The position numbers and the translations under genes are program-made. DNA of 35,235 nt from Acidobacteriota bacterium (GTDB lineage: Bacteria; Acidobacteriota; Blastocatellia; Pyrinomonadales; Pyrinomonadaceae), in the NCBI GenBank assembly GCA_025463135.1, contig JAOAPY010000009.1, positions 1-35,235 on the forward strand, written 5' to 3'. Numbering within the stretch: the stretch's first letter is position 1; the number at the start of each line of letters is the position of its first letter. The notes under the pieces are model-generated. The model saw only the letters and a program-made list of their open reading frames with translations. It searched no databases and was not told the origin of the DNA. This document shows positions 210 to 18,357 of this stretch, one piece after another.

Positions 210-3200
210 CTACTTGAGAAACCATGCGATGCGAGGATCACCGCTTGAGCCGTCTGGGTCGCTGAGTGAAGCCAGGAGGGTTTCGGTGGTCGGATTGGCC
301 AACCAGGCAAGCAGACCAAGTGGATCGCGCCTGTCTCCCAGAACAGCAGCCAACTGATCTGGATCGAGCAGAGGATCGCTCGGTTCGAGCAGTGTCAGGG
401 ATTTTTTTGACTCTTCAGACTGTGGATTTTCAAAGTACTTCATTGAATCGAAGAGAGATGCGCCTTCTCCTGTCTTTGTTGTCAAGACCGATTGCGTAAG
501 CCTCTCAGTAACAGCTTGTAGCGCTTCGATTGCGCGCCAGAAACTCTGTTCATCCTTATAGGTTTGACGATAAAACTCTCGGCGAAGGACGCCGCCGTAC
601 CTACCTTTCTTTCGAACTCCGGTATACACGTATTCCATTCTCTCGTCTGCGATTTTCAGCCAGGTCTCTTGATCGAATCCGTGCCGAAAACCTCGGTTCT
701 CCTCTGCATACCTTTTCATCAATTGCGCCGGCCAACCCTGGAGAGATTCAATTCTCGCTTGGAGAAGCGATCGATACTGTTCCGACCAACTTTCTTGCGA
801 CCCCTCATCGTCTTTTTTTCTTGCAAGCAGTCGCTCGGCCTCCAATGTGCTCAATTCTTGTAGCAACGGAAACGCTGGCGTGTTTCGCCTAAGAGGATCA
901 ATTCGCAAGGAACAAGAGCCGGGAAGCAGATTCTTAGCTTCACTAAGTGCTTCATCGGTCTCTAGAGCAACGATGTTAACTTGGTCGCCGTCAAAATCCG
1001 CTCCTAACACTTTTAGAATTCCGAGAGGTAGCCCGAAGACAGGTGTATCCGTTTCGTCAATGACTGGACGAAGAGCAATGAGTCCGCGCCGATGAAGCGT
1101 CGGATTGCGATTCACTAATACAATGTCTTTGCTTTGACTCGCTAAACCATCAAATAGTGTCTCAGCCACCCGCCTAGGAATCATTATTTGATCAATCCGT
1201 AAATCGGGCCTTGGAACGATCACGGCCCTAGCCGAGCGTGTGAGTCTTCGCCCAAGCACTTCTCGACGAAGAAAAGCATGGACTCCGAGGTGTTGGTCAA
1301 GAATGACCGCGACACATCTCTCAACATCTTTTCTGTAAGGCTTTCCGAATGCCAAAGCAACGAGGAGAGAGCGATAAGCCTTAGTTAACTCATGAGTAGC
1401 CGAGGTACCTTCCGGCCTAAGCCAAGGGGGTAATACATATAACTTCTCAATTAGTCGGTCCTTGCCTTCAAGATTGATTGTTATAGCTTTATCGAGTTGA
1501 ATGAAACCAAGACCACCTTTCTTTGAGGCAAATGCCTCATTGTCATTCAACAGGTCCCAAGCGTCTTTTAACTCTCCATAGTTACCACAGTGGATGGAAA
1601 AATCTTCTGGCTCAGAAGCTTGGACCAGACTTCCCGTTTCGATCTTTGCATCAATAACGGAGAGATAACGATTGAGCGCACGCGTCGCCAACTTTCGATG
1701 ATCCCCGCCTCCAACCTTGGCTTCCCAATACATCCAACTCGCCGTGGAGCGTTCTGGCGAAAGAAGTTCCTGAGCAATCGCCGACGCCCCATGAGCCATT
1801 AGCGCCCAGAACTCCATCTCGCCATAGCGCTGACCTCGCACCTCGTGGTTATGAACTCCGCGGACTCTGCATCGGTCAATGGCGTCTTGAGGCTGCCGCA
1901 TGACGAAAATGGTGCCGGAATGAGGTAATTCAATGTCGCTACTGCTAGATGCTTCACAAAACTGTCCCATCGCACTGCGTCGTGCTACTCCCACTGGCGA
2001 AAGGACGATCTCAGCACGTTGTTCGCCCTCAACGATCGGTAGATCGTCGTGGTTATCGTCGACGATTCTACTAACTACTCCTTTAATCCCGTGCCTTGTG
2101 GAAAGTTTGTCCCCCACCGAAACATCCGGATTAACCTCAACGACGAAAGTAATCGCCTCGCGCCACTTGAGGACCTTATTGGCGCCCCTTGGGTTATCGA
2201 TTAATTCCCCGTAAAGAAACTCCAGTCCTTCCGCACCTGGGCCTTGCAGATCAAGAATGCTGTGACGCTCAATTTCAAGTATGGTTCCGCCGATGGGCGC
2301 CACAGAGTTGGACAAACCGATTTCAAGCCACCCGTCGTGCAAGTCCTGATGCCAACGCTCACCAATCTCTTCAACTTCGTGGGAGCGAAAACCTAGCGCA
2401 AAAAGATCAATGAAGGCTTTGGCAAGTCGCCTACCTGGCTCAACAACATCATTGGGTGCAACATCCAACTCAACTCGAGAAACAATTGCGGGAATCAACA
2501 TCCGCCACTTTCTTTCTTCCCAACGCTTCCTTAGCTGTCTCGCGGCCGTTTGAGAAAGAACGATAGCATCTTCGTGAGTCCAGCCTTTGCAAGTAGAGAA
2601 GGCAACCCGCAGGTCTCTACCTGGAGGGTACCAACCGGCTCCTTCGATACTATCGTGTGGAGGACGGAGAGGGTCTGCGAGTGAGGCTTCGATATCCACG
2701 GCTCTACTCTGGAGTGAGGCTCCCAACATTAGACGCCTTGGCTCATTGTGAAAAGGATGCGGTATCAGCGAGGCGGAAGGTCCGAACACGGAACCGCTGA
2801 GGTTTTCGATTAGCACTCCATCATCACCAATTAGCCAGCCGTCCGATAAATACCGCGTTAAACCCGCGCGTTCATTCTCAGGAGTGTGAATCGGGTCAAG
2901 ACCCCTTCCCTCGACGGGCCACCTTAACGCGTCAGGGAAGTTCTTGACTCTTCGGGCAGGTCTTCGGCCATTTGTAGACCACACTTCTCCCTTCTTTTCG
3001 TCGATCCGAATCGTCTCGACTCGCCGGTCCAAAACCCTGGGGCGTGCGAGAAGCGAATCATCGGAACTGAGCGGCACCAACCACGACACGAGGGCTCGCT
3101 GGATTGCGACCGACAGTCTCTCTTTCGACACATTGGTTGGAAGAGTATTCTTAATCCAATCTAGGGCTTGATCTGCCCGAAGCAATCTTGTCCAGCCGAC

Positions 3201-4019
3201 GACCTTCGTCGCCTTCTCGCCGGCCTGCTGTTCTCCTGAGTTGCTAGATTTCTTCTTCCTATGAGTACGCTCTAGGACCGTGGTCCAATGACCGCCATCC
3301 CGCAGGTGCAGCGTTGCGTTACTGTCCGATGATCGGTTTGTTGCCCTCTTCTCCGCCTTAAAATAAGCGCGCAGGTAAGGCAATAAACAAGGTTGTTGAC
3401 CGCGTCGAAAAAACCCAAGATCATCCGGGAGGTCGACCATCCGAACTTGGATTGGCCGGAGAGAGTCAGCCAGGGTACGGGGCATTGATGCGGCGCTTTC
3501 CGGCGTTTCAACCAGCATCAACGTGGGTTTTAAGCCCTCCTCAGTAAGAATATTCCTGAGTGCTTCATGTATCGATTTCCTCTCAAGTCTTTGACGATAG
3601 AAACTCATGAGATCTTCGATGACCACTAAGCAATCTTTGCCAAGACTTGTTACGTGTTCCAGTAAAGCGGCTGGCGTTGGAGTATCTCTCCCAATAACCT
3701 TCCACTCCTCACAAGCAGAATCGAAACGAAGTCTTTTGAGCATGGAAAAATGAAACACTGACCAGTGGCTACCGAGGGCGAACGTTTCAAGCTCGTTCAA
3801 CACATACCTTTTGTCACGTGTTGATACGAGGTAGGCGCTCGTCTGATCAAGTCTTTCGTCAGACTGAATTGAGTCGGACAACACGTTCAGCAGCGCCTCG
3901 TCGCTGAGGCCATGGGAAGTAACCCACCTTAGATAGAGCGCTGCATTTTGAAGTTGGTTCGAGTTCATCGGTGGAAGCCTAATTGGTTTCTCGCAACACG
4001 TGTTACGTTTTTCTGACAC
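210..4019 (-). CDS. Compact single-chain (fused beta-beta') DNA-directed RNA polymerase
   Basis: 1269 aa combining both catalytic subunits of a multisubunit-type RNA polymerase. Beta-like signatures in order: DPIHTPENERAGL (about 376-388, cf. PIETPEGPNIGL); SLIP then LMLGASLQSRAV (417-441, cf. LMGANMQRQAV); RVAF..KGWTHEDAIVLS (471-489, with the E-D pair at 483-484); GDKLSTRHGIKGVVSRI (636-652, lysines 638 and 646); GQRYGEMEFWAL (729-740). Beta'-like signatures follow: YVLPPWLRP (861-869); LRREVLGRRLTRSARAVI (917-934); NRNPTLHRRG (970-979); GADFDGD (1006-1012, metal-binding Asp 1008, 1010, 1012); a bridge-helix-like stretch ending GGVLRRE (about 1131-1150); a trigger-loop-like TERLTQSVLTTKTG (1171-1184). 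Residues 1-360 resemble nothing I recognise. Housekeeping beta plus beta' total about 2,700 aa, so this is a minimal enzyme. The start is GTG at 4019, overlapping the upstream gene by 17 nt; ATG at 3968 is an alternative. Fold identification is near certain; its role is inferred. Confidence 0.93.
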   Translation of the reverse strand: MSEKRNTCCEKPIRLPPMNSNQLQNAALYLRWVTSHGLSDEALLNVLSDSIQSDERLDQTSAYLVSTRDKRYVLNELETFALGSHWSVFHFSMLKRLRFDSACEEWKVIGRDTPTPAALLEHVTSLGKDCLVVIEDLMSFYRQRLERKSIHEALRNILTEEGLKPTLMLVETPESAASMPRTLADSLRPIQVRMVDLPDDLGFFRRGQQPCLLPYLRAYFKAEKRATNRSSDSNATLHLRDGGHWTTVLERTHRKKKSSNSGEQQAGEKATKVVGWTRLLRADQALDWIKNTLPTNVSKERLSVAIQRALVSWLVPLSSDDSLLARPRVLDRRVETIRIDEKKGEVWSTNGRRPARRVKNFPDALRWPVEGRGLDPIHTPENERAGLTRYLSDGWLIGDDGVLIENLSGSVFGPSASLIPHPFHNEPRRLMLGASLQSRAVDIEASLADPLRPPHDSIEGAGWYPPGRDLRVAFSTCKGWTHEDAIVLSQTAARQLRKRWEERKWRMLIPAIVSRVELDVAPNDVVEPGRRLAKAFIDLFALGFRSHEVEEIGERWHQDLHDGWLEIGLSNSVAPIGGTILEIERHSILDLQGPGAEGLEFLYGELIDNPRGANKVLKWREAITFVVEVNPDVSVGDKLSTRHGIKGVVSRIVDDNHDDLPIVEGEQRAEIVLSPVGVARRSAMGQFCEASSSSDIELPHSGTIFVMRQPQDAIDRCRVRGVHNHEVRGQRYGEMEFWALMAHGASAIAQELLSPERSTASWMYWEAKVGGGDHRKLATRALNRYLSVIDAKIETGSLVQASEPEDFSIHCGNYGELKDAWDLLNDNEAFASKKGGLGFIQLDKAITINLEGKDRLIEKLYVLPPWLRPEGTSATHELTKAYRSLLVALAFGKPYRKDVERCVAVILDQHLGVHAFLRREVLGRRLTRSARAVIVPRPDLRIDQIMIPRRVAETLFDGLASQSKDIVLVNRNPTLHRRGLIALRPVIDETDTPVFGLPLGILKVLGADFDGDQVNIVALETDEALSEAKNLLPGSCSLRIDPLRRNTPAFPLLQELSTLEAERLLARKKDDEGSQESWSEQYRSLLQARIESLQGWPAQLMKRYAEENRGFRHGFDQETWLKIADERMEYVYTGVRKKGRYGGVLRREFYRQTYKDEQSFWRAIEALQAVTERLTQSVLTTKTGEGASLFDSMKYFENPQSEESKKSLTLLEPSDPLLDPDQLAAVLGDRRDPLGLLAWLANPTTETLLASLSDPDGSSGDPRIAWFLK

Positions 4020-4767
4020 GTGATCGCGCTGTGGTTTCCGAATGCTTCACCGCTTTCCAGTGCGCGCGTGTCCAATCCTCTCCAGCAAGTTCGTTGCCCC
4101 CTTCACCCGACTCCTGCAACGTCTTCTGACGAAGGGCACCGGCCCGTGTAGCTCGCCTTCCTGTCGTTGCATGGTTAATCAGAGCCTGCGGAGTGACTAC
4201 ATCGCCATTAGGTAGCAAGATGGCAAAAGACTTTGCGGAGGCGCCAACTTTCTCAAACCTCATCTTTAGCAATTGATAACTTGTTCCTGACGATAAGGTT
4301 CCGGCTACAACAAGCTTAAGAAGTTTGCGCTCTGATTCGATCGCTGGGATATGGCGCCAGTCTCCGGGTTTTACAAGGTCGGTACGGGTGTCGCGGATAT
4401 GCCGAGCCACGGCGGACGCAATCAAGTGACTGAGATTCGAACTTGAATCATCACGGCTGTCCAATCGATGCACATTTAACGACGAGTCAATGAGATATCG
4501 AACGGGAGGACTGGTTCGGCGGGCTAACTGCTTCTCAAGAGGGAGAGCAGAAGACCATTCCAGGTCGAAACTATGCTCGACAGATTCGCCCGTTAGGATG
4601 GCTTCACTGTTAGCACGGTCATCAATTTCATCAGTGAAGTCTTCATCCAGTTCTTCAATGTCTTCTTCATCGCCGAGTTGAATTTGAGCAAATTGCTCCT
4701 GAAGGAGTGAAGTTATTTGCCTCGCGCCCTGGGATGTACGGGTGCCGCGTTTAAGTCGTTGGCTCAT
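4003..4767 (-). CDS. Unknown acidic protein, candidate partner of the single-chain RNA polymerase
   Basis: 254 aa, no family recognised. The N-terminus is basic (MSQRLKRGTR), followed by a predicted helix and a strongly acidic stretch (about 33-50, rich in D and E). The middle is a mixed region (about 85-190) with a likely folded core around KLLKLVVAGTLSSGTSYQLLKMRF and LLPNGDVVTPQALINHA. The tail is basic and Arg-rich, ending SRVRKT. It is the first gene of the minus-strand unit, and its 3' end overlaps the polymerase start by 17 nt, so the two are very likely co-translated. By analogy with other small polymerases that work with a dedicated accessory protein, it could be a promoter-specificity, clamp or processivity factor. 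It shows no recognisable sigma, Gre or NusG motif. The gene is real by length and arrangement; the function is a guess. Confidence 0.8.
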   Translation of the reverse strand: MSQRLKRGTRTSQGARQITSLLQEQFAQIQLGDEEDIEELDEDFTDEIDDRANSEAILTGESVEHSFDLEWSSALPLEKQLARRTSPPVRYLIDSSLNVHRLDSRDDSSSNLSHLIASAVARHIRDTRTDLVKPGDWRHIPAIESERKLLKLVVAGTLSSGTSYQLLKMRFEKVGASAKSFAILLPNGDVVTPQALINHATTGRRATRAGALRQKTLQESGEGGNELAGEDWTRAHWKAVKHSETTARSRVRKT

Positions 4768-5646: not shown

Positions 5647-6480
5647 ATGACTAACATGAACTCAAAACTGACCGGTTCAACTGCGCTGACTTTGCTGCTT
5701 CTCATATCGCTTGCGATGGTTGGATGTAAGCAATCTGGAACTCACGACGCAGAACAGGTGCGTGGTGATAAACCCATAACACCATCTACCTCACAGCCTT
5801 GTCAGCAATCCATTGTGAAGATTGCACTGCTTCAGGATAAGAGTGGAAGTACAGGTCAGACGAGGACGCCGCAGATTAGTATGGAGCATATCGATCTTCT
5901 CGTGAATCTAATACGTCCATGTGGAGGGGAGATAGGCTTCGGCTTGATAAACGAACAGAGCAACAGTTCTCTCCACCGGTTGCGTATCGAAGTTCCGCCA
6001 AGCGGCGCTCCGAAAGAACCAGACAAGAACGGGAATCCGTTTCAAGTGCAGCGAGAGATGGCGGAATACCGCAAGGCAAAGGTTAAGTTTGACGAGAGCG
6101 TACAGGCATTCGAATCTGAAACGGATCGTCGCATAGCAACGTTCAAGTCGCAGATTAGTTCACTACTGGATGCTCCCGCAACCGCGCCCAGATCCGATTT
6201 CTTCGGCGGAATTCAGCGGGCCAACCTGTTCCTCTCCGAGAATAGCGCCGCATGGCCTTCGCCCCCGCATCAGATCCTGTTGATCGTTGGAGATGGACTC
6301 GACAACGTGCACAGCAAACACGAAGCATTGCAGAAAGCGACCCGGCTAATATTGATCAACGGCAGCGCGTCGGTTGGTTCCCTGACGTCACTGAGTCCAA
6401 CGAGATTTGAGAACATTGAATCCGCGATTCAATTTTTAATCGCTTCAGAGAGACAGACGTCCGTGCCCCGTTCGTTGTGA
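5647..6480 (+). CDS. VWA-type lipoprotein
   Basis: 277 aa from ATG 5647; the frame is open further upstream, but GAGGAG at about 5629-5634 and the signal peptide favour this start. A type II signal peptide (hydrophobic 14-25) ends in a lipobox AMVGC with Cys27 as lipidation site. The mature part has a von Willebrand A-like start, IALLQDKSGST, where D64, S66 and S68 fit a MIDAS metal site. A later strand ILLIVGDGLDNV supplies another acidic residue. Between them is a charged insert rich in Glu and Lys (about 120-170). It is predicted to be outer-membrane or periplasmic and to bind a partner through the metal site. It is first of a run with the 4-TM protein, the 290-aa protein and the AAA+ ATPase, so an ATPase/VWA partnership (as in MoxR-VWA systems) is plausible but inferred. 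Confidence 0.8.
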   Translation: MTNMNSKLTGSTALTLLLLISLAMVGCKQSGTHDAEQVRGDKPITPSTSQPCQQSIVKIALLQDKSGSTGQTRTPQISMEHIDLLVNLIRPCGGEIGFGLINEQSNSSLHRLRIEVPPSGAPKEPDKNGNPFQVQREMAEYRKAKVKFDESVQAFESETDRRIATFKSQISSLLDAPATAPRSDFFGGIQRANLFLSENSAAWPSPPHQILLIVGDGLDNVHSKHEALQKATRLILINGSASVGSLTSLSPTRFENIESAIQFLIASERQTSVPRSL

Positions 6481-6575
6481 CGCGCCGCTGGTCTGTGGCT
6501 CATCAGGTAGACCGACGCTCCCCCTAGGCCAGCTCAGTGATACCAAACAAATTGTTTTGAAGGAGATCAGAAAAG

Positions 6576-7685
6576 ATGCCAACACAAATTGTTCGCGAAA
6601 CGCGTGATGGACGCAAAAACCGGATTGAAAATCAGCGCGCAGATGAACAAAGTCGGAAGGGAATCTCAATTCTTCTCAATCAACTCCACGAGGCTGCGAG
6701 TAAGACAAGACGGCTCGAAAGCCTCCGCAAGACGAAGGAGGAGGAGAAGGCGAAGCTGGCCACCGATAACATAGACGAAGCTGGATTCACAGCGCACGAG
6801 AAAGTGCAGGCCAAACTATTCCTCTGTGTTTATCCGGCTGCCTGGCTTTTTGAATTTCTCTTTTTGGGCGCGCTCGCAGAATTCCTGATGAGTCTTGGGC
6901 TCTACGACATGCCACGAGGGGTCATTTTGCTGGGCAGGTTTCTTATCCCAACGGCTATCTTAGTAGCGGATGCGTACTTCGGCGCCCAATTAGTTGCCTC
7001 GCGCGAAGTGGCATTTGAAAAACGTGAAAGCGCCGGCAAATACCTATGGGCGGTCGCTTGTATCTGTTGGGTATTCTTATTGGCCGGTGTTGCTGGATAC
7101 ACCTGCTATGTAAAGCTCGCAACCCAGGAGACTTTCTCATGGGGAGACATGTGGCTCCCGCTTATTCTAGCAGCGCTTAGTCTATGTTTTCACTGTGCAA
7201 TAGTCTTCGGCGGAGAGAGGCTGCGCAATGCGAAAGCCTATCTGTCCTACTCACGGGCTCATACCAAACTTGAGCAATCTATCCAGCAATCAACAGCGGG
7301 CTATGACCGAGCGAGAGCCGCCGTTAGCCAAGTTTACCGTGACTATACTGACGCATTGGAGCTTTACAACAACCGTAATACCCATGCGCCGGTCGGCGCA
7401 GGTCCTTTTGACCAAGAGGTAGTGAGAATAGTCAACGAGATTTTCGGCCCCGTTATCCTTCCACCTCCCGCACAAAATAGTACTGAGCATATTCCTCCTC
7501 CGGTGCGACCGTCTGCAGATGGCGCCGCAACGAACAACGCCGAATCTACGGCAACTGATCCGGCGGAACCCTTTAGAGTCCAGGAAGAGCGTGCCACGAA
7601 CGGCAATCATGGAAATCCATTTGACGGATTTCACTTGGACGTTGACGGAAGAATTAGGGACGCCGAGAGCGAAGTTACAGCCTAA
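6576..7685 (+). CDS. Four-TM membrane protein with flanking coiled coils, unknown function
   Basis: 369 aa, preceded by GAAGGAGAT at good spacing before ATG 6576. The N-terminal ~75 residues are charged and helical (LLNQLHEAASKTRRLESLRK and a Lys/Glu-rich run), probably a coiled coil. Four hydrophobic segments follow: about 84-112, 117-143, 155-180 and 188-210. A second helical stretch (about 215-265) is followed by a proline-rich, low-complexity tail. The layout is reminiscent of DUF4407-like four-TM proteins, but I do not claim membership. It sits between the lipoprotein and the 290-aa gene in a tight rightward run, so it may anchor a complex in the inner membrane. Confidence 0.75.
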   Translation: MPTQIVRETRDGRKNRIENQRADEQSRKGISILLNQLHEAASKTRRLESLRKTKEEEKAKLATDNIDEAGFTAHEKVQAKLFLCVYPAAWLFEFLFLGALAEFLMSLGLYDMPRGVILLGRFLIPTAILVADAYFGAQLVASREVAFEKRESAGKYLWAVACICWVFLLAGVAGYTCYVKLATQETFSWGDMWLPLILAALSLCFHCAIVFGGERLRNAKAYLSYSRAHTKLEQSIQQSTAGYDRARAAVSQVYRDYTDALELYNNRNTHAPVGAGPFDQEVVRIVNEIFGPVILPPPAQNSTEHIPPPVRPSADGAATNNAESTATDPAEPFRVQEERATNGNHGNPFDGFHLDVDGRIRDAESEVTA

Positions 7686-7716
7686 AGACAGAATACTGAA
7701 CAGGAAGGTGAGTTCC

Positions 7717-8589
7717 ATGAGCACAATCTCCACAAGACCCAAAGTCAAATCAGTCGTGAACGCCAGGGTTATGGCGAACGTTCGCAGCATTGCGGAAGTA
7801 CTGAACTCGATGACATCAGCGCGAACGGGCAGGAATACAGTTCAGCAGCGAGTGCAAACTCCCCAGAAGTTCTCATCGTTAGCATCAACCGCTTCATTGC
7901 TGGCCTCCGCAAATCGGCTGCAACAAAAGAGATTTCATCAACTATTGAATCAGAAGGTCTCTCAGGAAGCAGCTCTGAGAGCCTCAACATTTGAACTGAT
8001 TACTCAAATGCCATTTGCCGTCGGTAACTCGGCAACGATGAAGACCCGCTTAAAGGCGTTTTCAATGGCGAACTCAGCGCAAGAGGTTATAAGCGCCAGG
8101 ACGCTGCTTATGAAAGAGATCGCCGTACAGCACAATAGCGTCCTCACAAATACGCTGACGGTGGCTTGTGCAAATGCATTCAAGAAAATCGGCTTCGATT
8201 CTGTGCAGGTGTTACCGACAATTAATGCCAAAGCCCGCTTGGTAGCCAGTAATCCAAGCGGCAAAACGTTGGTAGCTGAGATAGCACCCGATGAGCAATT
8301 CGACCTCTCGATATCGACTGAGATTGTGAGCGGTTGTGATAGTACTACGCCCGCGATCTTGGATGCTTTTGATAAGGCGCTCGAAGAGGAAGGTGTTCGG
8401 GCCGCTAAGGCAGTTCGTAAAGAGACTGGGGGCGTTTGCGAACTAGACACCGCCCGTGACGTGCTCTCCTTCGTGCGACGGAAAGCCTCGCCCCAAGACT
8501 CCGTGGCTGGACCACAATCCTCTGACGCTGCGCTGCGCCGAAGTCAACGCCTTAACGACAAAAGAACACGCAACATAACCAAGCGCTGA
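7717..8589 (+). CDS. Unknown 290-aa protein in the AAA/VWA operon
   Basis: 290 aa from ATG 7717, with AGGAAGG at 7702-7708 placed 8 nt upstream; the frame is open further upstream but would overlap the preceding gene. The first ~150 residues are Ala/Ser/Gln-rich and predicted helical, likely rod-like. A compact alpha/beta region follows (about 155-255) with strands around VQVLPTINAKARLVASN and LVAEIAPDEQFDLSIS, then a helix ILDAFDKALEEEGV. The tail is basic (RRSQRLNDKRTRNITKR). No family recognised. Gap to the previous gene is 31 nt and to the ATPase gene 103 nt. Its place beside an AAA+ ATPase suggests a substrate or adaptor, inferred from context only. Confidence 0.7.
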   Translation: MSTISTRPKVKSVVNARVMANVRSIAEVLNSMTSARTGRNTVQQRVQTPQKFSSLASTASLLASANRLQQKRFHQLLNQKVSQEAALRASTFELITQMPFAVGNSATMKTRLKAFSMANSAQEVISARTLLMKEIAVQHNSVLTNTLTVACANAFKKIGFDSVQVLPTINAKARLVASNPSGKTLVAEIAPDEQFDLSISTEIVSGCDSTTPAILDAFDKALEEEGVRAAKAVRKETGGVCELDTARDVLSFVRRKASPQDSVAGPQSSDAALRRSQRLNDKRTRNITKR

Positions 8590-8692
8590 GGCGGAAAGCA
8601 CTCAGTCCTCTTTTGGCTGCCAACACTCTGTGGCTAACCAATTCCCATCTTGAATCTTGCCTAAATCGAACAGCTTAAGGAGCTACATTTTC

Positions 8693-10465
8693 ATGGAACC
8701 AATGAATCGCATATTCGAGAAGTACGAAGACGGCTACGCCGCTTTGTTATTAACCGGACGCTCAATTCATGATCTCGTTGTTGACCCATCGGACAAGAAA
8801 CTTAGAACTCTCTTGGAAGCCCTTAGACGAAGTTGCCGGGACAGATATGGGATGGTTCTCCTGCGATATTCGATGGCTGGTGGACTGGACTATGACAAAA
8901 GCCGAATCAGCGATGAGTGCGACCAGCGAACAATCGAGAAGGTATTGCAAGTTCATGGCTTGGCGAAAATCCCTCAAGACCAAAACGAAGCAGTGCGCGT
9001 GCTGCGGGGGATCTACTCCTTGTCGCGAACGCCAGTTGACGACCTAAAGTGGGCGGACGGTAAGACCATGCGGTTCTGCGCTCTTTTTGAGTTCGGCGAA
9101 CACCTAACCCCTGGAGAACTCTCCAACGGCACACAAACCGATGCGCAACTCGTCGCTATTGAATTGGCACACCTGCTTGGACATAACCTTGCACTCCGTT
9201 CGAGCGGCAACCTCGTAATGTTTCATGGCCGCGATGGTCTCATCGACGATCTTGTCGGAAGCGCATTGCATCATGTTCGCATTCCGCAACCAGACGCTGA
9301 CGAAAAGAAGGCGTTTCTTACTTCTGCCCAGGCCGTCTACGCCAACGCGAAGTTTGAGTCCACTCTGACAGATGAAGGCATTGCGAATCTAACGCGCAAT
9401 ACGCCCAATAGAGGCTTCGAGGCTCGAATCCGGGCGTCGCATCGCAGTGGGCAAGTCATCACCGCTGGCGAGCTGGCGGAGCAGAAGAACCATGATGTCG
9501 AACAACTCTCAGAACGTACTCTAACTGTGCTCGATACGACCCGAGTTAATGACCTTCGACTGTGTGGCGTGAACATCTCGAAGCCACGTGAAGTGCTCGA
9601 AAGCTATGCGGACGGATTGCTGCACGGCGACTCAAACCTGCCCTTGAATATCTTGCTTGTGGGACCTCCAGGAACGGGAAAAACTGACCTCGCCGTTCTG
9701 ACTGCACATCGGGCAAAGACAGCGGCGTATCAGATGCATAGCCCGAAAGGTGGCATTGTTGGAGAGACCGAACGGAAGGTGCGACTTCAGTGGTGTGCAT
9801 TAAATGAATGGGGCGGCATCGCATTTTCAGATGAAATAACTGAAGCCCTGCCGCTTCAAAGAAGTGAGTTCGATGGCGACTCCGGCGCCAGCCGGGCGGT
9901 CACGGCAACTCTCCTCACTGAATTATCGAATGAGTCGGCCCGTGGACGACGGCTCTTGATAGCGACAACGAATTGTCCGTGGCGAATGGGGGCCGCCATG
10001 CGATCTCGGTTCACGCTAATACCTGTTCTGCACCCGTTGCAGAATGACTTCCCAGGCATTGTAATCTCCACTGCAAAGCGGATTGTTTCGGACCTGGAGT
10101 TAGATCCCGCCGACCAGAAGATTCAGGATGCGGCAAGAGTGTTCTACGAAAAAGGAGCAAACCCGCGCCATGTGAGGTCCCAACTGAGCAATGCCCTATA
10201 CATCAAGGGCGTAATGAATTCAGATACCGTCCTGTTCGCGGCAAATGACCTTTGTCCGACTAGTGACATGCCGTACACGATTTACTCCGATTTATGGGCC
10301 GTCAAGGCGTGTACCTCCCATTATTTCCTCCCGTGGGGTGAAGGACCATCAGATTATGCCTTCCCTCCACATCTGGCTGACCTTGTGGATCGCGCTACTG
10401 GACACGTTGACGGTGAAGCGTTGGACAAGAAGTTAGAGGAGTACAGCAACTATGCAAACGTTTGA
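8693..10465 (+). CDS. Tandem AAA+ ATPase with a degenerate first domain
   Basis: 590 aa from ATG 8693, chosen because AAGGAG lies 10 nt upstream; a TTG at 8657 would add 12 residues. Domain 1 (about 10-270) keeps the overall AAA layout, with a Walker-B-like strand FCALFEFGEHL, a sensor-like strand SSGNLVMFHGR and a lid start HHVRIPQPDADEKKAFL, but lacks a P-loop. Domain 2 is complete: Walker A GPPGTGKT (324-331), Walker B IAFSDEI (376-382), sensor 1 IATTN (423-427) and an Arg-finger-like RSRF (437-440). The protein is therefore expected to hydrolyse ATP with one of two rings. It belongs to a run with a VWA-type lipoprotein and a membrane protein. Its last 14 nt overlap the aminotransferase gene, so the two are translationally coupled. 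Confidence 0.85.
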   Translation: MEPMNRIFEKYEDGYAALLLTGRSIHDLVVDPSDKKLRTLLEALRRSCRDRYGMVLLRYSMAGGLDYDKSRISDECDQRTIEKVLQVHGLAKIPQDQNEAVRVLRGIYSLSRTPVDDLKWADGKTMRFCALFEFGEHLTPGELSNGTQTDAQLVAIELAHLLGHNLALRSSGNLVMFHGRDGLIDDLVGSALHHVRIPQPDADEKKAFLTSAQAVYANAKFESTLTDEGIANLTRNTPNRGFEARIRASHRSGQVITAGELAEQKNHDVEQLSERTLTVLDTTRVNDLRLCGVNISKPREVLESYADGLLHGDSNLPLNILLVGPPGTGKTDLAVLTAHRAKTAAYQMHSPKGGIVGETERKVRLQWCALNEWGGIAFSDEITEALPLQRSEFDGDSGASRAVTATLLTELSNESARGRRLLIATTNCPWRMGAAMRSRFTLIPVLHPLQNDFPGIVISTAKRIVSDLELDPADQKIQDAARVFYEKGANPRHVRSQLSNALYIKGVMNSDTVLFAANDLCPTSDMPYTIYSDLWAVKACTSHYFLPWGEGPSDYAFPPHLADLVDRATGHVDGEALDKKLEEYSNYANV

Positions 10466-11546
10466 TCCGATAGTCGAAGCAGGTAAGAGGGGAGTCCGCC
10501 AGTACTTGAAATCCGTGGCCTCGTCCCCGCTCGCCATACAGGAGCATTATTGCGGAGCTGCTGGCCCGGTTGCCGATCTCGAAACTAAACTACGACAGTT
10601 TTACGGAATGAAGCATGCTCTCTGCGTCAGTAATGCCACGACAGGACTTTTTGCGTTAGCTCTTGCGGCAGAATTAAGACGCAGCGAGTTCGTCACCACC
10701 CCATTCACCTATGGAGCTACCTTAGCAGGCTGGCTCATGCTGAATAATCGCCCATTGTTTGCTGACATTGATCCGGTTACTCTTGCGGTTGAGGTCAACT
10801 CCGCGCGACGCGTTATCACTTCAAAAACAAAAGCGATTTTGGCTGTCGACATTTTTGGTATCCCGTCCGATACGAAGGAATTGCGTCGCCTAGCAGATGA
10901 CTACGGTATCTGGTATTTCGCCGACGCTTCGCAGAGCTTAGGAGCAAGTCGTCAAGGTTTTCAAGCAAGCAGTCTCGCAGATGCGTTGGTCGTATCCTTT
11001 ACCGCGAACAAACCTCTTAGTGCTGGCGAAGGGGGTGCGATTCTCACCAATAACACTGGACTCTATGAAAAGCTTATTTGGGCCACGCAACACCCTGCGC
11101 GACACCGGCGCGAGCTTGGATTGGACTTGGACAATGAATTTGCGTTTAACGGCCGTATTGCCCCCACCTCAGCTGCCTGGGCTGCCTCAGCTTTTGAAGC
11201 ATCAATGCGAAAGGTCAAGCAGCATCAGGTTGAGTGCTTGCGTATCATCGAAAATCTAAACGACATCGGTTTCACGGCGCCTATAGATTTTGAAAAGAAC
11301 TCAATCCTGCCTTCGTTTTTCCGTCTCACAGCGGCGTGGAAGCCGAAAGCGAAAGAAGAACCATTACTAAGGGAATTGCGCAGACGCTCCTTCCATTTGA
11401 TCATTGAACCTTCCCCGGTACGAATCATCTACCGCCAACCAGCTTTCAAGTCACAATACCCGCGCTTCGCGGGAACAGCACCTTCTTGTCGCAGTGCCGA
11501 ACAACAGTCCAAGCGGCGCTTTTGCTTAACCGCTCTTCCAAGCTGA
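10452..11546 (+). CDS. DegT/DnrJ/EryC1-type PLP-dependent aminotransferase
   Basis: 364 aa, sugar-aminotransferase fold. Near residue 57 is ALCVSNATTGL, the small-residue turn before the substrate loop. TTPFTYGATLAGWL (about 82-95) aligns with the usual FxATA region. FADASQSLGA (156-165) holds Asp158, the PLP-pyridine contact, and SFTANKPLSAGEGGAI (182-197) holds Lys187, the expected Schiff-base lysine. The C-terminus is slightly short, ending after a segment equivalent to the usual AE..R.LSLP block. Such enzymes aminate nucleotide-linked keto-sugars in surface glycan or antibiotic pathways. No other sugar gene is nearby, so the substrate is unknown. The start overlaps the AAA+ gene by 14 nt. 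An amino-sugar or protein-modification role in this operon would be unusual. Confidence 0.88.
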   Translation: MQTFDPIVEAGKRGVRQYLKSVASSPLAIQEHYCGAAGPVADLETKLRQFYGMKHALCVSNATTGLFALALAAELRRSEFVTTPFTYGATLAGWLMLNNRPLFADIDPVTLAVEVNSARRVITSKTKAILAVDIFGIPSDTKELRRLADDYGIWYFADASQSLGASRQGFQASSLADALVVSFTANKPLSAGEGGAILTNNTGLYEKLIWATQHPARHRRELGLDLDNEFAFNGRIAPTSAAWAASAFEASMRKVKQHQVECLRIIENLNDIGFTAPIDFEKNSILPSFFRLTAAWKPKAKEEPLLRELRRRSFHLIIEPSPVRIIYRQPAFKSQYPRFAGTAPSCRSAEQQSKRRFCLTALPS

Positions 11547-11791
11547 TTTGAGTGCTCGGCTCTGCTCGATTTCTTAGCTGCCTTGGCAAGTGTCCTGGCC
11601 AGTAGCGACTAAGGTCACGAGCAGTGTCGCATTGGCTATCGCTTCTACCTTCATCAACGCTAACAAAAGACAAAGCCGAATGACCGCCTAAGTGTTGGTC
11701 TGGTCCCTTGCGCTGTCATGAGTCGCCCTCTTTGCTCTTTAGCGCAGATAAAATCTGGGATTGCAAATCATCGATTACGAGGAGAACAAAA

Positions 11792-12151
11792 ATGTCCCTA
11801 CTGTGGGCTCTCTTGCCGGATGAATTCATGCCTTTGGCGATCGCAGGCATTGGTCTTGCGGTCATTCTGGGCTTCTTACGTTTGCGCAAAGCTGCGGCGT
11901 TGATCGGAGGAATTTGCTTACTGCTCATTAGTGGACCGTTCTTCGATGCCATTTTTGACTCGCTTCCAACCTGGATATTCCTGCTGATGCTTCCAATTGC
12001 TGCCATCCTAGTAATTCGCTGGCTTGTACGTCTGGTGATCGGAGAGCGCGCGGCAGACCATCTGGTGGGTAGCCTAGCGGCAGACTTATGTCGGGGGCTT
12101 ATCTTGCTTCCATTCCGCCTGCTGGGATTCCTGTTTAAAAGAAATAACTAA
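11792..12151 (+). CDS. Small three-TM membrane protein
   Basis: 119 aa from ATG 11792, with GAGGAG about 9 nt upstream; the longer open frame starts without a ribosome site. Three hydrophobic segments (about 10-28, 33-52 and 61-84), then an amphipathic C-terminal part ending in a basic FLFKRNN. No family recognised. The 245-bp gap before it (11547-11791) shows no gene, and a promoter may lie there. It is followed after 31 nt by the Arg-rich lipoprotein and then the large ATPase, so the three probably form a transcription unit, perhaps with the AAA+ run upstream. Confidence 0.7.
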   Translation: MSLLWALLPDEFMPLAIAGIGLAVILGFLRLRKAAALIGGICLLLISGPFFDAIFDSLPTWIFLLMLPIAAILVIRWLVRLVIGERAADHLVGSLAADLCRGLILLPFRLLGFLFKRNN

Positions 12152-12182
12152 CTCTACTGACACTCCACGGAGGATGTTCGAG

Positions 12183-12806
12183 ATGAGATTCTTCAAAGCC
12201 TGTATGGTCTCTTCGTTGCTGTTTCTAATGTTTGGTGCCTCTGGATGCGCGTCGGCCGGGAAGTCAGCGGCTCGAAGGCTATTGCGAGTCGAGGCTCGCG
12301 CGATCGAGCGTCAATCGGCTAGACAAGTGAAGCGTCAGGCCGGGCGCTCAATTGAGCGTCAAGCTGGGCGATCGTCTGAGCGGCAGGCATTTCGCGAAGC
12401 CGAGCGGAAATCCGCTCGTTCAGCGGAGACTAACATTACTCGCACGCTGGATCGTGATCTTGCACGCGATCGTGCAACGACAGCCCGACGTCTTTCGCGA
12501 GAGGCGACCGCCTTCAGATACACATCTAAAGCGCAAGCAAGAAGAGAGTTGAAGTCCGGCATTCCTGCTGGAAGTCACTTCACATCGAAGGCAGGACCAG
12601 GAAGACCGCTTGGGGCAAGCTCGGCGCGTGCCCGTTACGGCTTGCCTCGCACTCCTGAAGTACGTGAGACCGTGCGGTTGCAAAAGGGGTCGATGATAAA
12701 GCGTAACCGAGCTATCGGTGGCGCGAGGGGTGTTGGCGAAATCACGAGCAGCGGAAAAACAAATCGCATGGCGATCAGAAAAGTACTGCCATTGAAACAA
12801 AACTAA
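12183..12806 (+). CDS. Arg-rich repetitive lipoprotein
   Basis: 207 aa. GGAGG at 12169-12173 directly touches an ATG at 12174, so the in-frame ATG at 12183, 9 nt away, is preferred. A signal peptide ends in the lipobox GASGC. The mature region (about 30-110) is built of imperfect short repeats around the pattern ERQAGRS / ARS(A/I)ER, extremely rich in Arg, Ala, Ser and Gln and likely one long helix. The C-terminal half is basic with little predicted structure (SGIPAGSHFTSKAGPGRP). High positive charge suggests contact with nucleic acid, membrane or acidic polymer, but no family is recognised. The stop codon overlaps the next start as TAATG, indicating coupling to the VirD4-like ATPase. Confidence 0.75.
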   Translation: MRFFKACMVSSLLFLMFGASGCASAGKSAARRLLRVEARAIERQSARQVKRQAGRSIERQAGRSSERQAFREAERKSARSAETNITRTLDRDLARDRATTARRLSREATAFRYTSKAQARRELKSGIPAGSHFTSKAGPGRPLGASSARARYGLPRTPEVRETVRLQKGSMIKRNRAIGGARGVGEITSSGKTNRMAIRKVLPLKQN

Positions 12807-15316
12807 TGACAATTATTTCAACTTCTCGTCGCGCTGGCCAGACGGGTGAAGGTTTCCAATTGGAATCCCAACAATGCCCACTTCCTTCTATGCCGATTGC
12901 TGAATCAGTTCCTGCTCCCGAGGTGATCACCGAGGTTGAGCGTCTCTCTCCATGCGAAGCCGAGAGTATCCCTGCGATTTTTGTCCGAGAGCGCGAACCA
13001 GGATGTTTTGAGGCCGTTTCAGCGATCGAGCTCTTAGGGATCGCGTGGAATTCGCGCAGAACTCCTAATGAGGATAATGAAGAACGCGACAATGCATCCC
13101 AGTCGTTCGATAGAGTTCTCCGAAGTTTGTTAGCCTCTCTCAGTTTTCATCAGCGATTAGAATTTGTTTACGAGGTGTGTCAAGGCCTAAACGGCGCGCC
13201 AGCCCTTGACTGGAGAGTTGTGAGCCGCATTCATTCGAACAACTCTAGCGGAGCTATTAAGCAATCGGAGTTGTTCTGGCGTAGTGCAGGCTTTGTCACA
13301 GCCGACCTTGGGTTTTCCTTGCGATTCAGGCCGACAACCGCAGAGGAAAAACTCATTGACGAAACTAGCCGATCTTTGACAGCGTCGATTTCTCCATCTG
13401 GCATCTCAATCTCGCCAACATCTTCTCGAATGGGCTTTGTTCGCAATCTGGGCGCATCCGATCAACCCCTGCTCGTTCCATATGCCCCCGGAAAGCGAAC
13501 CGGCGCCATTAGTTCTCTACTCAACGTCCAACACTCGCTAGAACTCGTATTGTCATTTGAGCGCTTCAAGTTGTTTGAAGATGAGCGGCGCGAAATCGCG
13601 CAAGCTCTCGCGTGGTTGCGCGAGGGCTCGCCTAAGAAGATCATGTACTCGGAAGAAGTCACAATCGAACAAGCAGATCTTCTCAGTTCGCTGGATAAGA
13701 ACGTGGAAAACTGGTGCTGCAACCCGAGAGGATACCGAGTCCTTTGCGAGGTCAAGTCAAATGACTCTCTTCCGATAGCATTGCTGCACAGAATCGGCGC
13801 TGAGGTTTTCTCTGGCCGGCCATTCTCCATTAACTTTGATCAAGGGTTTGATTCTGACCACAGCGCGAAACCGGTCTCCCGTCAGTTAGATCTTCGCAGT
13901 TGTTTTAATGACTTCGCAGAGTTGCCATCGGTGTTTCCAAGCCTTACATCTTTAAGGCATCACGGAGTGAATCGTGTCTATCCATTGCCCAATCTTGCGT
14001 TGCCGGACACAGGCGCGCTGATTGGTAGGGTCGATTATGGTTGGGTAGAGCGCGACGTCCGGTTAAGAGATGCGGACCGTGGCACGCATTTGGCGATCTT
14101 GGGATGTACTGGGACGGGGAAATCCACTTTGATGTACTCGCTGATCAAACACTCGATCGAAAATGACGATGGCGTCATTCTGTTGGATCCCCACGGACAC
14201 CTCTATCGCCAGGCTCTTGAAAGCGTGCCCTCTCGCCGGGCAAAAGACGTAGTGCTGATCGATTTCACAGACTTTGAGCATGCCGTTGGGATTAATTTCC
14301 TCGAAACGAGTGGTCCACATAAACAAATGCTGACGAACTTCGTTTCGAACGAAATGATCAAGATCTTCGATCGGTTGTATGACCTACGCCAGACTGGTGG
14401 CCCGATGTTTGAGCAGTACATGCGTAGCGCACTCATGCTTCTGATGGAAAGTGAGTTTGAGGGAGGAACCTTAGTTGAAGTTCCATTGTTATTTCAGGAC
14501 AGCGAATTCAGATCATACTTAATCGAGCATTGTGGAAACCCATACGTTACGACATTTTGGACTCAACAAGCCGAAAAGGCTTGCGGTGAGATTTCACTCG
14601 CGAACATGGCGCCTTACATAACATCGAAACTGAACCAATTCACAAACAATGCGCTGGTACGGGCTGTAATCGGGCAGTCTAAGAGTACAGTTAACTTCCA
14701 GGAGATCCTTGATGACCGCAAGATTCTGTTAGTCAATTTGTCAAAGGGTTTGCTGTCACAATTAGACGCGCAACTGCTCGGAATGTTGATTATGGGCAAG
14801 TTATTTGCGGCTGCGATGGAAAGAGCCGCATCGAGTGATCCCTCTCGCAAAACATTCATGTTCGTTGATGAGTTCGGCAATTTTGCGACGGATACTGCTG
14901 CATATATGTTGAGTGAGTCACGCAAGTTTGGCCTCAGTCTGACCATGGCATTTCAGAATTTGGCTCAACTGAATGCGCAGGATGGAAAGCAGAACCTGCT
15001 TGAGTCTCTATTGGGTAACGTGGGTTCATTAGCGTTGTTTCGAGTCGGACCAATGGATGCCGATAAGCTGGCATCCTATACACGCCCTGATTTTGCTGCC
15101 GAGGATTTGCAGGACCTTCCGAATCATCATGCTGTCGCTAGACTGCTAATCGACAATCAGCCGTGCCGTCCATTTGTCTTTAAGACAGTGCCGCTGCTGA
15201 GCACTGCAAACGTTGGGCGGACGCAACGGATCATCAAGGCATCCCGAGCAAAGTACACGCGTCCAGTTACGCATGTAGAGCAGGAGATTCTAAAGCGGCG
15301 AACTAGGGTCGTGTAG
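12806..15316 (+). CDS. VirD4/TraD-like (type IV coupling-type) ATPase
   Basis: 836 aa. The first ~400 residues are not recognised. The C-terminal motor has Walker A GCTGTGKST (433-441), a strand VILLDPHG (457-464), and Walker B FMFVDEFGNFAT (684-695). The segment SRKFGLSLTMAFQNLAQL then matches the Q-motif region of VirD4/TraD/TrwB coupling proteins (QARKxG..L..A.Q). It therefore probably pumps DNA or protein substrates as a hexamer. No N-terminal transmembrane helices are visible, unlike classical membrane-anchored coupling proteins, so it may be soluble or recruited by the small membrane and lipoprotein products encoded just upstream (TAATG overlap). No relaxase or other type IV secretion gene was seen in the window. 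Alternative: a HerA/FtsK-type translocase. Confidence 0.85.
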   Translation: MTIISTSRRAGQTGEGFQLESQQCPLPSMPIAESVPAPEVITEVERLSPCEAESIPAIFVREREPGCFEAVSAIELLGIAWNSRRTPNEDNEERDNASQSFDRVLRSLLASLSFHQRLEFVYEVCQGLNGAPALDWRVVSRIHSNNSSGAIKQSELFWRSAGFVTADLGFSLRFRPTTAEEKLIDETSRSLTASISPSGISISPTSSRMGFVRNLGASDQPLLVPYAPGKRTGAISSLLNVQHSLELVLSFERFKLFEDERREIAQALAWLREGSPKKIMYSEEVTIEQADLLSSLDKNVENWCCNPRGYRVLCEVKSNDSLPIALLHRIGAEVFSGRPFSINFDQGFDSDHSAKPVSRQLDLRSCFNDFAELPSVFPSLTSLRHHGVNRVYPLPNLALPDTGALIGRVDYGWVERDVRLRDADRGTHLAILGCTGTGKSTLMYSLIKHSIENDDGVILLDPHGHLYRQALESVPSRRAKDVVLIDFTDFEHAVGINFLETSGPHKQMLTNFVSNEMIKIFDRLYDLRQTGGPMFEQYMRSALMLLMESEFEGGTLVEVPLLFQDSEFRSYLIEHCGNPYVTTFWTQQAEKACGEISLANMAPYITSKLNQFTNNALVRAVIGQSKSTVNFQEILDDRKILLVNLSKGLLSQLDAQLLGMLIMGKLFAAAMERAASSDPSRKTFMFVDEFGNFATDTAAYMLSESRKFGLSLTMAFQNLAQLNAQDGKQNLLESLLGNVGSLALFRVGPMDADKLASYTRPDFAAEDLQDLPNHHAVARLLIDNQPCRPFVFKTVPLLSTANVGRTQRIIKASRAKYTRPVTHVEQEILKRRTRVV

Positions 15317-16228: not shown

Positions 16229-16822
16229 ATGAAACTAAAAATAGTTCAAGCCGGGGATCCGGTTCTGCGCCAACAGAGCCAATCTCTGTCGGCAGATGAG
16301 ATCAAGAGTGCATCGATTAGGCAACTGATTGATTTGATGCGAGAGACGATGCGGGATACGCCGGGCGTGGGGTTAGCGGCCCCTCAGGTTGGCACACCTA
16401 TACAGCTTGCGGTCATTGAGGATCGGCTCGAATACATGAAGGATCTTTCGGCGGAGCAGCTTAGAGAGCGCCAGAGATCTCCAGTTGACTTTCACGTCAT
16501 CATAAATCCGACGATTTCTATCCTAGGCGAAACATCAGCGGAATTCTTCGAAGGCTGCTTGAGTATAGCTGGCTTTGCTGCTCTCGTTCGTCGCGGCGTT
16601 AATGTTCGCGTTGACTGTCTCAATGAACAAGCGGAACCAGTTACCATCGAGGCGCAAGGTTGGTACGCTCGCATATTGCAGCATGAGATAGATCATCTAA
16701 CTGGCACGTTGTATGTGGACCGAATGGAAACGCGCTCGTTTATGACTGCGGAGAATCTGAATCGAGTGTGGAAGAGTCGAACCATTCGACAGGTGCGCTC
16801 TGCACTCGGTATCGATGTGTAG
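16229..16822 (+). CDS. def: Peptide deformylase
   Basis: 197 aa with all three deformylase motifs: [10 protein letters not shown] (46-55), EGCLSI (108-113) and QHEIDHL (151-157). The metal ligands are Cys110, His152 and His156, and Glu153 is the general base, so the enzyme should be active and remove the formyl group from nascent protein N-termini. It is longer than the usual ~170 aa, with an insert of about 20 residues (about 66-88, [20 protein letters not shown]) before the second motif. There is no methionyl-tRNA formyltransferase gene next to it, which is the usual chromosomal neighbour, so this is likely an extra copy carried by the accessory region. The ribosome site is weak (GAGAAG). 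The 229 bp that follow contain nothing recognised. Confidence 0.93.
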
Positions 16823-18344: not shown

Positions 18345-18357
18345 GGAGCGTTACCAA

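Follow-up and report, generated by a model that had tools for sequence, protein, structure and literature searches.

We use 'the window' for the whole stretch of DNA analysed here, 35,235 nt from an Acidobacteriota bacterium (GCA_025463135.1, contig JAOAPY010000009.1, positions 1-35,235, forward strand). The window carries a cassette of five genes that follow one another on the + strand: a VWA-fold lipoprotein, a protein with four transmembrane (TM) segments, a protein that we call X, a two-domain classical AAA ATPase and a DegT-type aminotransferase. A sequence-only reading of this DNA had described the first four as a module, and the open reading frame (ORF) listing and the raw sequence confirm their order, place and strand. 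The four genes are indeed linked, but that reading overlooked the fifth gene, DegT (10452-11546), and a small membrane protein gene (11708-12151). We show the linkage of the cassette genes, the fold classes and conserved motifs of their products, and the mobility of the cassette. Tentatively, we propose that the cassette is a mobile five-gene operon encoding an ATP-driven, membrane-anchored remodelling complex. In what follows, L-numbers denote loci and G-numbers genomes; there are eight 'core' copies of the cassette, and the loci L012 (on the Arthrobacter plasmid pZXY24), L025 and L070 are called 'diverged'.

The five cassette genes and their products

The ATPase gene (8693-10465, + strand) encodes 590 residues. 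Pfam AAA (PF00004) matches residues 320-441 at 2.9e-14. There is a single Walker A motif (residues 324-331, nucleotides 9662-9685), accompanied by a Walker B motif (9818-9835), and the first 300 residues contain no Walker A. An 8-row profile of the ATPase matches VCP/CDC48 chains in the PDB at up to 6e-48. When the ATPase was tested for MoxR type, AAA_5 gave 0.0014, under the cut-off; the best NCBIfam models were CDC48 and PAN, also under their cut-offs. Most standalone AAA relatives align over positions 5-549 of the 592-position profile at E values of about 1e-50. PspA adjoins at least 8 of 23 standalone AAA loci (L039 by phmmer; L040, L041, L045, L049, L051, L052 and L057 by Pfam); the PspA beside L049, L052 and L057 is cut at the fetched edge and lies under the Pfam curated cut-off, and that of L041 is the query's own PspA. 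This count is a lower bound because the remaining standalone loci were not all tested. Passages of Ravi et al. (2024; PMC11237479) describe a partner of PspA that has two AAA+ domains, of which the N-terminal is inactive, and that is proposed to remodel membranes. The cassette ATPase shows full-length homology to these PspA-partner AAA proteins with an inactive N-terminal half. Judged by its sequence, it is a classical AAA of the PspA-partner family, with a degenerate N-terminal half and an active C-terminal half.

The sequence-only reading had called this protein a cytoplasmic tandem AAA+ ATPase reminiscent of MoxR-VWA systems. Two domains are present, although only the C-terminal half carries a Walker A motif. 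The likeness to MoxR is rejected because of the ATPase family matches: Pfam and NCBIfam point to classical AAA proteins, and the standalone relatives and the tree described below point to the PspA-partner type. The cytoplasmic location agrees with a hydropathy scan, in which the core ATPases showed no TM segment.

The first gene (5647-6480, + strand, ATG start at 5647) encodes 277 residues. The protein has a lipobox-like MVGC with Cys27 (5725-5727) and the motif DKSGS starting at D64 (5836-5850). The lipobox cysteine is present in all eight core copies and in 9 of the 10 genes at that position; the sole exception is Arthrobacter, where a hydrophobic N-terminus lacks the cysteine. The motif of a metal-ion-dependent adhesion site (MIDAS), DxSxS or DxTxS, occurs in all 10 genes at the VWA position, eight of them core. 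The Pfam VWA match of the window protein is below the cut-off (VWA_2, 15.9 vs 27 bits). An AlphaFold2 model from a 4-sequence alignment (mean predicted local distance difference test score (pLDDT), 76.8) gave 16 Foldseek matches at 0.001 or lower; they were VWA domains, integrin I domains or chains of TFIIH and the pre-initiation complex. Among the matches listed, solved VWA domains align with VIA Z scores of 13-15 over 155-179 residues. The model also contains a 45-residue helix insertion (about 6037-6171). The modelled structure thus confirms that the first gene product adopts the VWA fold, into which a long helical stretch is inserted. In leave-one-out searches, VWA relatives were recovered at E values of 4e-29 or better in L007, L008, L009, L011 and L024. 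From its lipobox, the protein is predicted to be a lipoprotein outside the inner membrane. Both the D64-x-S-x-S lipoprotein and its outer location had been claimed from the sequence, and both claims are supported.

The second gene (6576-7685, + strand) encodes four hydrophobic segments, as expected for the membrane protein that had been placed between the lipoprotein and the ATPase. In the window copy the loops contain 4, 1, 4, 1 and 5 lysine or arginine residues in turn, which suggests a topology with both termini inside. The protein has a C-terminal peptide, RIRDAESEV (7650-7676), and clear variants of this tail are found in five other copies (RIRDAEDEV, NIRDAEREV, RVQDEEDEV, RIRQADAEV and RVRTAEREV). 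Its predicted outer loops are short; in the window they comprise 15 and 19 residues. The suggestion that the module forms a trans-envelope machine is plausible, but the four-TM protein would expose little outside the membrane.

Protein X is encoded by the third gene (7717-8589, + strand, 290 residues). It has no Pfam match at E 1 and none in NCBIfam at 0.1; its PHROG matches are weak, the best at 0.0055. In an AlphaFold2 model (pLDDT 71.8), a long helix is followed by four strands and a second helix, which together form a core at about 8077-8388. The best PDB matches were the N-terminal domain of spermine synthase (VIA Z 10) and KA1 domains. We left X without a fold assignment because no Foldseek E value was below 0.001. 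DUF1257 and DUF2997 are absent from the listed PDB matches of X, which excludes nothing, and six X proteins gave no Pfam match to either family at E values up to 10. By hhalign, X aligns with DUF1257 (columns 144-181) and then with DUF2997 (columns 203-226), with probabilities of 6% and 11%.

ORFs were also ranked by their similarity to X. With a profile including L012 and L025, nine DUF1257/DUF2997 proteins ranked 1, 6, 11, 20, 24, 53, 254, 277 and 529 among 2291 distinct ORFs (p 2e-6). A core-only profile of eight copies ranked nine of them 4, 5, 36, 46, 57, 167, 297, 391 and 796 among 2294 ORFs (p 9e-6), and eight of them 1, 2, 20, 23, 58, 88, 111 and 212 among 505 likely genes (Mann-Whitney p 2e-5). 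One ranked protein, from L015, has no Pfam match and was classed as DUF2997 by eye. These results suggest that X is probably a distant relative of DUF1257/DUF2997 and not a member of either family. AAA genes adjoin DUF1257 genes in L015, L016, L017 and L019; we take these AAA genes to be Ycf46-type and DUF1257 to be Ycf35. A cyanobacterial DUF2997-ycf35-fed7 cluster is listed in one part of a review (PMC4284462), and the same arrangement is found at L014.

The fifth gene (10452-11546, + strand) encodes an aminotransferase of the DegT/DnrJ/EryC1/StrS type, which uses pyridoxal phosphate (PLP). It belongs to the family by its match to PF01041 (4.4e-52). Lys187 (11010-11012), the catalytic lysine of the family, is invariant in seven aligned relatives. 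In the window, L010, L024 and L068, the start of the DegT gene overlaps the end of the AAA gene by 14 nt. The two genes overlap in L008 and L011 too, to an extent that depends on the chosen start codon, and they do not overlap in L007. DegT follows AAA in all 11 loci where the contig continues (window, L007, L008, L009, L010, L011, L012, L024, L025, L068 and L070). Secreted-looking proteins with a C-terminal part that is similar by eye follow the cassette at L010 (4815-5657) and the AAA-DegT pair at L070 (3125-4318); that of L010 has no Pfam match. Beside the diverged cassette of pZXY24 (L012, 1-7876) there is a cluster with genes for myo-inositol-1-phosphate synthase, adenylylsulfate kinase and sulfotransferase, and with a gene that by eye looks nucleotidyltransferase-like.

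Conservation, linked inheritance and spread

The full order VWA, four-TM, X, AAA, DegT is found in seven genomes (window, L007, L008, L009, L011, L024 and L068). In an eighth genome, G063, the cassette is split over two contigs, and L069 ends and L010 starts inside the AAA gene. As the order recurs in eight genomes, it is not due to chance. The sequence-only reading had proposed gene-neighbourhood conservation as its check and scattered genes in relatives as the result that would speak against a module; the genes stay linked in relatives, and thus this test leaves the module standing. So far the cassette is known from Acidobacteriota, one cyanobacterium (Calothrix) and a Deltaproteobacterium; an actinobacterial plasmid carries a diverged form.

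Our profiles were trained on six core loci plus L012 and L025, and the searches were hence repeated with each locus left out. All five genes were again found in each of the six core training loci, the weakest being the four-TM protein of L011 (8.8e-7). Two loci were never in training. L068 matched at 1.5e-70 (VWA), 4.4e-60 (four-TM), 2.2e-68 (X) and 1.8e-147 (DegT), and L069 at 4.7e-59 (VWA), 1.1e-15 (four-TM) and 6.6e-49 (X). In L012 and L025, leave-one-out searches recovered AAA and DegT securely, at 1e-49 or better; the VWA protein and X of L012 and the X of L025 were assigned by position and by eye. By sequence comparison, then, the two diverged loci (the Arthrobacter plasmid and G164) share the AAA-DegT pair; their other genes correspond in position, but their sequences do not identify them securely.

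The cassette is rare and patchily distributed. A scan of genome contigs with the ATPase, seeded by pattern so that the count is a lower bound, found at least four relatives (two acidobacterial metagenome-assembled genomes, Calothrix parasitica and a Deltaproteobacterium). Only 2 of 60 related genomes match the ATPase at 1e-15, the window genome and G017. Across the phylum, 3 of 396 genomes match at 1e-40: the window genome and G087, which are core, and G164, which is diverged. Within the class, 16 of 162 genomes match at 1e-50, four with core copies (G000, G017, G763 and G803) and 12 with standalone AAA proteins. G763 and L007 are one genome, counted once; the host of L007 is an acidobacterium because G763 belongs to the window's own family. 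In the phylum of Calothrix, 8 of 292 genomes match at 1e-30, one of them core. The deltaproteobacterial phylum gave 4 of 345 at 1e-50: G063 (core), G898 (AAA and DegT only, at a contig start) and two standalone. As a control, the VWA, four-TM, X and DegT profiles were run on the sequence flanking 23 distinct standalone AAA loci, which for 20 of them was only about 1.5 kb, and gave no match at 0.01; the only matches in this set came from L022/L025, a diverged cassette. No description of the cassette was found among the open-access PMC papers listed by our searches, which is weak evidence of absence.

The five proteins appear to have been inherited together. Their identity matrices across seven loci are positively correlated in all 10 pairs (r 0.47-0.92), with an exact Mantel p below 0.05 in eight; both exceptions include the four-TM protein. 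We built a maximum-likelihood tree of 26 AAA proteins, comprising 10 from cassettes, 15 of the 23 standalone and 1 of 4 Ycf46-type. The cassette AAA proteins form one group (83/74), within which the core seven are supported at 100/100; according to a program warning, L012, a long row, may not be placed correctly. The Calothrix AAA is nested among acidobacterial copies (91/92), and the AAA of L011, though from the window's own family, branches outside the other six core copies. In the window, GC content at third codon positions is 0.46-0.56 in the twelve genes measured between 213 and 20022 and 0.66-0.71 in four genes from 26324 on, with values of 0.73, 0.55 and 0.57 in three genes between. Together, the correlated distances, the AAA tree and this contrast in composition point to horizontal transfer.

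Phage origin of the cassette was rejected after searches of phage records and viral contigs. There was no relative of the ATPase at 1e-8 among 50,697 phage records, and none in viral contigs when a single protein was the query. Searching the viral contigs with an alignment (A4) gave 64 relatives. All 64 were scanned for cassette genes: none had a VWA, four-TM, X or small-membrane-protein match at 1e-4, and one had a partial DegT match (L109). For X, 38 pattern matches in viral contigs included no relative. Plasmid records held two distant ATPase matches at 1e-8, one of which adjoins a DegT gene (pZXY24) and the other not.

Neighbouring genes and a model of cassette function

Several genes flank the cassette. 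The small membrane protein gene after DegT (11708-12151, + strand) has an uncertain start, with an alternative ATG at 11792. BLAST found relatives in L008 (1.6e-21) and L010 (2.7e-7), and the gene follows DegT in L008, L010 and, more weakly, L011 and L024. Leave-one-out searches recovered L011 (E 2e-4), L024 (E 4e-5), L008 and the window, and missed L010. Next comes a 210-residue protein (12174-12806, + strand), an optional neighbour with a relative at the matching position in L008. It is followed by a VirD4/HerA-like ATPase resembling type IV coupling proteins (12806-15316, + strand), a common but not constant neighbour that is found near five of the eight core copies: the window, L010, L011, L008 (in pieces) and L068. 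The L068 gene is diverged (2.7e-9) and accompanied by a Replic_Relax gene. Further downstream, still in the low-GC island of the window, lie an ORF resembling peptide deformylase by eye (16229-16822, + strand) and an AAA_15/AAA_21 ATPase (18325-20025, + strand), AriA/PtuA-like by PADLOC, with a C-terminal end that looks hydrophobic.

Upstream and divergent from the cassette lies a 1269-residue single-chain RNA polymerase fusion (210-4019, - strand, with 4003-4767, - strand, adjoining). It joins a beta C-terminal part (Rpb2_6) to a beta-prime catalytic part (Rpb1_2) with DFDGD at 1008. It matched no plasmid record (1e-8) or phage record (1e-5) and has weak relatives in six viral contigs. We excluded it from the system because the other cassette genomes show only short matches in an rpoB-size frame (six of seven) or none (one of seven). 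Large proteins with receiver-like stretches, seen by eye, lie upstream of the cassette in L007 (308-6200) and L024 (13452-16935); the 619- and 667-residue proteins among them had no Pfam match at 0.01.

Based on these results, we tentatively favour a model in which the cassette encodes a remodelling complex anchored in the inner membrane. The AAA ATPase, presumably hexameric, with an inactive N-terminal half and an active C-terminal half, would work with X as an adaptor at the inner membrane face. Together they may grip and pull the four-TM protein by its cytoplasmic tail, with the C-terminal peptide as the probable point of contact. Vps4 grips the tails of ESCRT-III, and the proposed gripping would be analogous. 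The four-TM protein would thus be both the anchor and the substrate of the AAA machine. Outside, the VWA lipoprotein may use its MIDAS-type metal site and helical arm to bind a target in the envelope or a ligand, and so set the state of the four-TM protein as an external sensor, gate or clamp. The co-translated PLP aminotransferase would make or consume an aminated metabolite, probably a sugar or cyclitol, which could serve as the ligand or as an envelope modification. The purpose would most likely be the protection or maintenance of the carrier element, in envelope stress, superinfection or defence. We infer the assembly of the complex, the docking of the tail, the direction of signalling, the role and substrate of the aminotransferase, and the purpose.

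Several observations weigh against this model. Every contact between the cassette products is one that we infer. The four-TM protein, which would be the anchor of the machine, is the least conserved part (13-31% identity); its loop charges in L024 (2, 1, 1, 2, 4) leave the topology undecided, and its tail motif is reduced to the terminal acidic-E-V in L008 and L011 and absent from L012 and L025. The diverged loci are weak in other ways: leave-one-out profiles miss the VWA protein and X of L012 and the X of L025, find the VWA protein of L025 at 2e-4 only, and the four-TM profile matches neither membrane protein. For the ATPase, a 6-row profile omitting the two diverged copies matches no PDB chain at 1e-40. 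PspA was not found near cassettes by one phmmer query against 978 ORFs in 16 cassette and control stretches; the one match, a weak one (7e-9), lies about 19 kb away from the cassette of G017. The similarity of X to DUF1257/DUF2997 is not significant for any single protein (best E 3.2 with the core-only profile and 0.51 with the profile including L012 and L025), the hhalign probabilities are just 6-11%, and five of the nine ranked proteins come from one genome. Finally, three of the eight core copies (L007, L009 and L024) have no VirD4-like gene nearby.

A bolder and more doubtful version of the model would make the cassette an undescribed class, a mobile-element-borne, ESCRT/Vps4-like trans-envelope machine. 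AAA and a Ycf35-like adaptor would pull the tail of a channel or latch, the MIDAS lipoprotein would control it from outside, an aminated molecule would set its state, and the outcome would be defence or DNA exchange.

Alternatively, the cassette could be an anti-phage or anti-plasmid conflict system, which we consider rather unlikely. The VWA protein would sense an envelope event, AAA, X and the four-TM protein would depolarise or remodel the membrane, and DegT would make a signal or modified metabolite. The rarity, patchiness and horizontal movement of the cassette suit this idea, as does the AriA/PtuA-type ATPase in the window (18325-20025). Three of the eight core copies have defence genes at a distance of up to about 8 kb, namely Cas3 (best model Cas3e) with a WYL regulator at L007, a class II prokaryotic Argonaute, cut at the fetched edge, at L068, and Cas6 at L069, but these were noticed by eye and without a random-locus baseline. 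Additionally, only the ATPase and X have PADLOC matches at 0.1, and searches of Pfam, NCBIfam and PADLOC gave no toxin or nuclease family for the five genes.

The VirD4/HerA-like neighbours raise a further possibility, that the complex assists the transfer of conjugative or mobilizable elements by opening the envelope, or making it ready, for a DNA pump of the VirD4/HerA-like kind. We regard this as unlikely. The window's VirD4 family has nine matches in the eight cassette genomes, and five of these, in four genomes, are at the cassette. The Arthrobacter plasmid (64 kb) is typed as mobilizable and carries a MOBF relaxase (TrwC-type). However, the genomes of the three core copies that lack the neighbour have no match to the window's VirD4 at 1e-10, and in G803 a close VirD4 relative lies on another contig. 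A Pfam search of 11 window proteins found no relaxase or VirB4, and the VirD4 link may merely reflect joint carriage on mobile elements.

Least convincing is a chaperone pair, in which AAA and VWA would act like the MoxR/VWA activases to mature DegT as a client in an amino-sugar pathway: the 14-nt overlap, the constant DegT neighbour in the 11 continuing loci, and the myo-inositol-1-phosphate synthase and other sulfur- and sugar-related genes on the Arthrobacter plasmid favour it, but it is very improbable given that the ATPase is not MoxR, that the VWA protein is predicted to lie across the membrane from the enzyme, and that no sugar-nucleotide pathway was recognised near other cassettes by eye, a systematic search not having been made.

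Comparison with known systems

MoxR AAA+/VWA systems include Bat, RavA-ViaA and others. They share with the cassette an AAA ATPase and a VWA protein with the DxS/TxS metal motif; the cassette ATPase is instead a classical AAA outside the MoxR clade. Kaur et al. (2020) reportedly described vWA-MoxR ternary conflict systems with VWA and AAA proteins in one operon. The main text of that paper (PMC7159879) has no mention of DegT, aminotransferase, Ycf46, DUF1257 or DUF2997. When the five proteins were compared with PADLOC at E 0.1, the ATPase matched the IetA and TRIP13 models through its AAA domain (about 3e-6) and X had one match at 0.03. The VWA protein, the four-TM protein and DegT gave no match at this threshold, and there was no convincing match to a known anti-phage system.

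A second point of comparison is the FtsZl1 (Tubulin_2)/VWA membrane-remodelling system, which is treated in parts of Makarova and Koonin (2010; PMC2875224). As set out there, a VWA protein, often exported, is part of a multi-gene membrane system, as in the cassette. A Pfam scan of 10 window proteins found no tubulin-like, OmpA or GTPase gene, and Tubulin_2 was not searched for in the cassette flanks. A different gene set at L071 (G863:C55, 4813-17998) is reminiscent of this system (PMC2875224): it contains a 505-residue protein, an AAA of the same family, a 466-residue protein, an exported VWA protein of 995 residues and a Tubulin_2 protein. The C-terminus of the 505-residue upstream protein looks X-like by eye (E 3.7 and 11).

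The cassette can also be compared with Ycf46-type AAA proteins and their DUF1257/DUF2997 partners. In both cases an AAA with a long N-terminal part lies next to small partners, and the alignments of X, though weak, place DUF1257 first and DUF2997 after it. Unlike the cassette, the Ycf46-type loci have no membrane or VWA gene that was recognised within the few kb seen.

With the PspA-partner AAA systems the cassette ATPase shares full-length homology and the inactive N-terminal AAA copy. The cassette differs in that no PspA was seen adjoining; the ATPase, which forms its own AAA group, is instead accompanied by a VWA lipoprotein, a four-TM protein, X and a PLP enzyme. It is unusual for an AAA/VWA envelope operon to include a metabolic PLP enzyme as a constant component. 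Should the cassette prove to defend or spread the element that carries it, it would represent a new kind of system for conflict or transfer at the level of the envelope. With the cassette, a poorly understood AAA family, which comprises the PspA partners as well as the Ycf46 type, gains a compact and mobile unit of five genes that has a clear inside part and a clear outside part, and this offers a tractable way to learn what the ATPases of this family grip.

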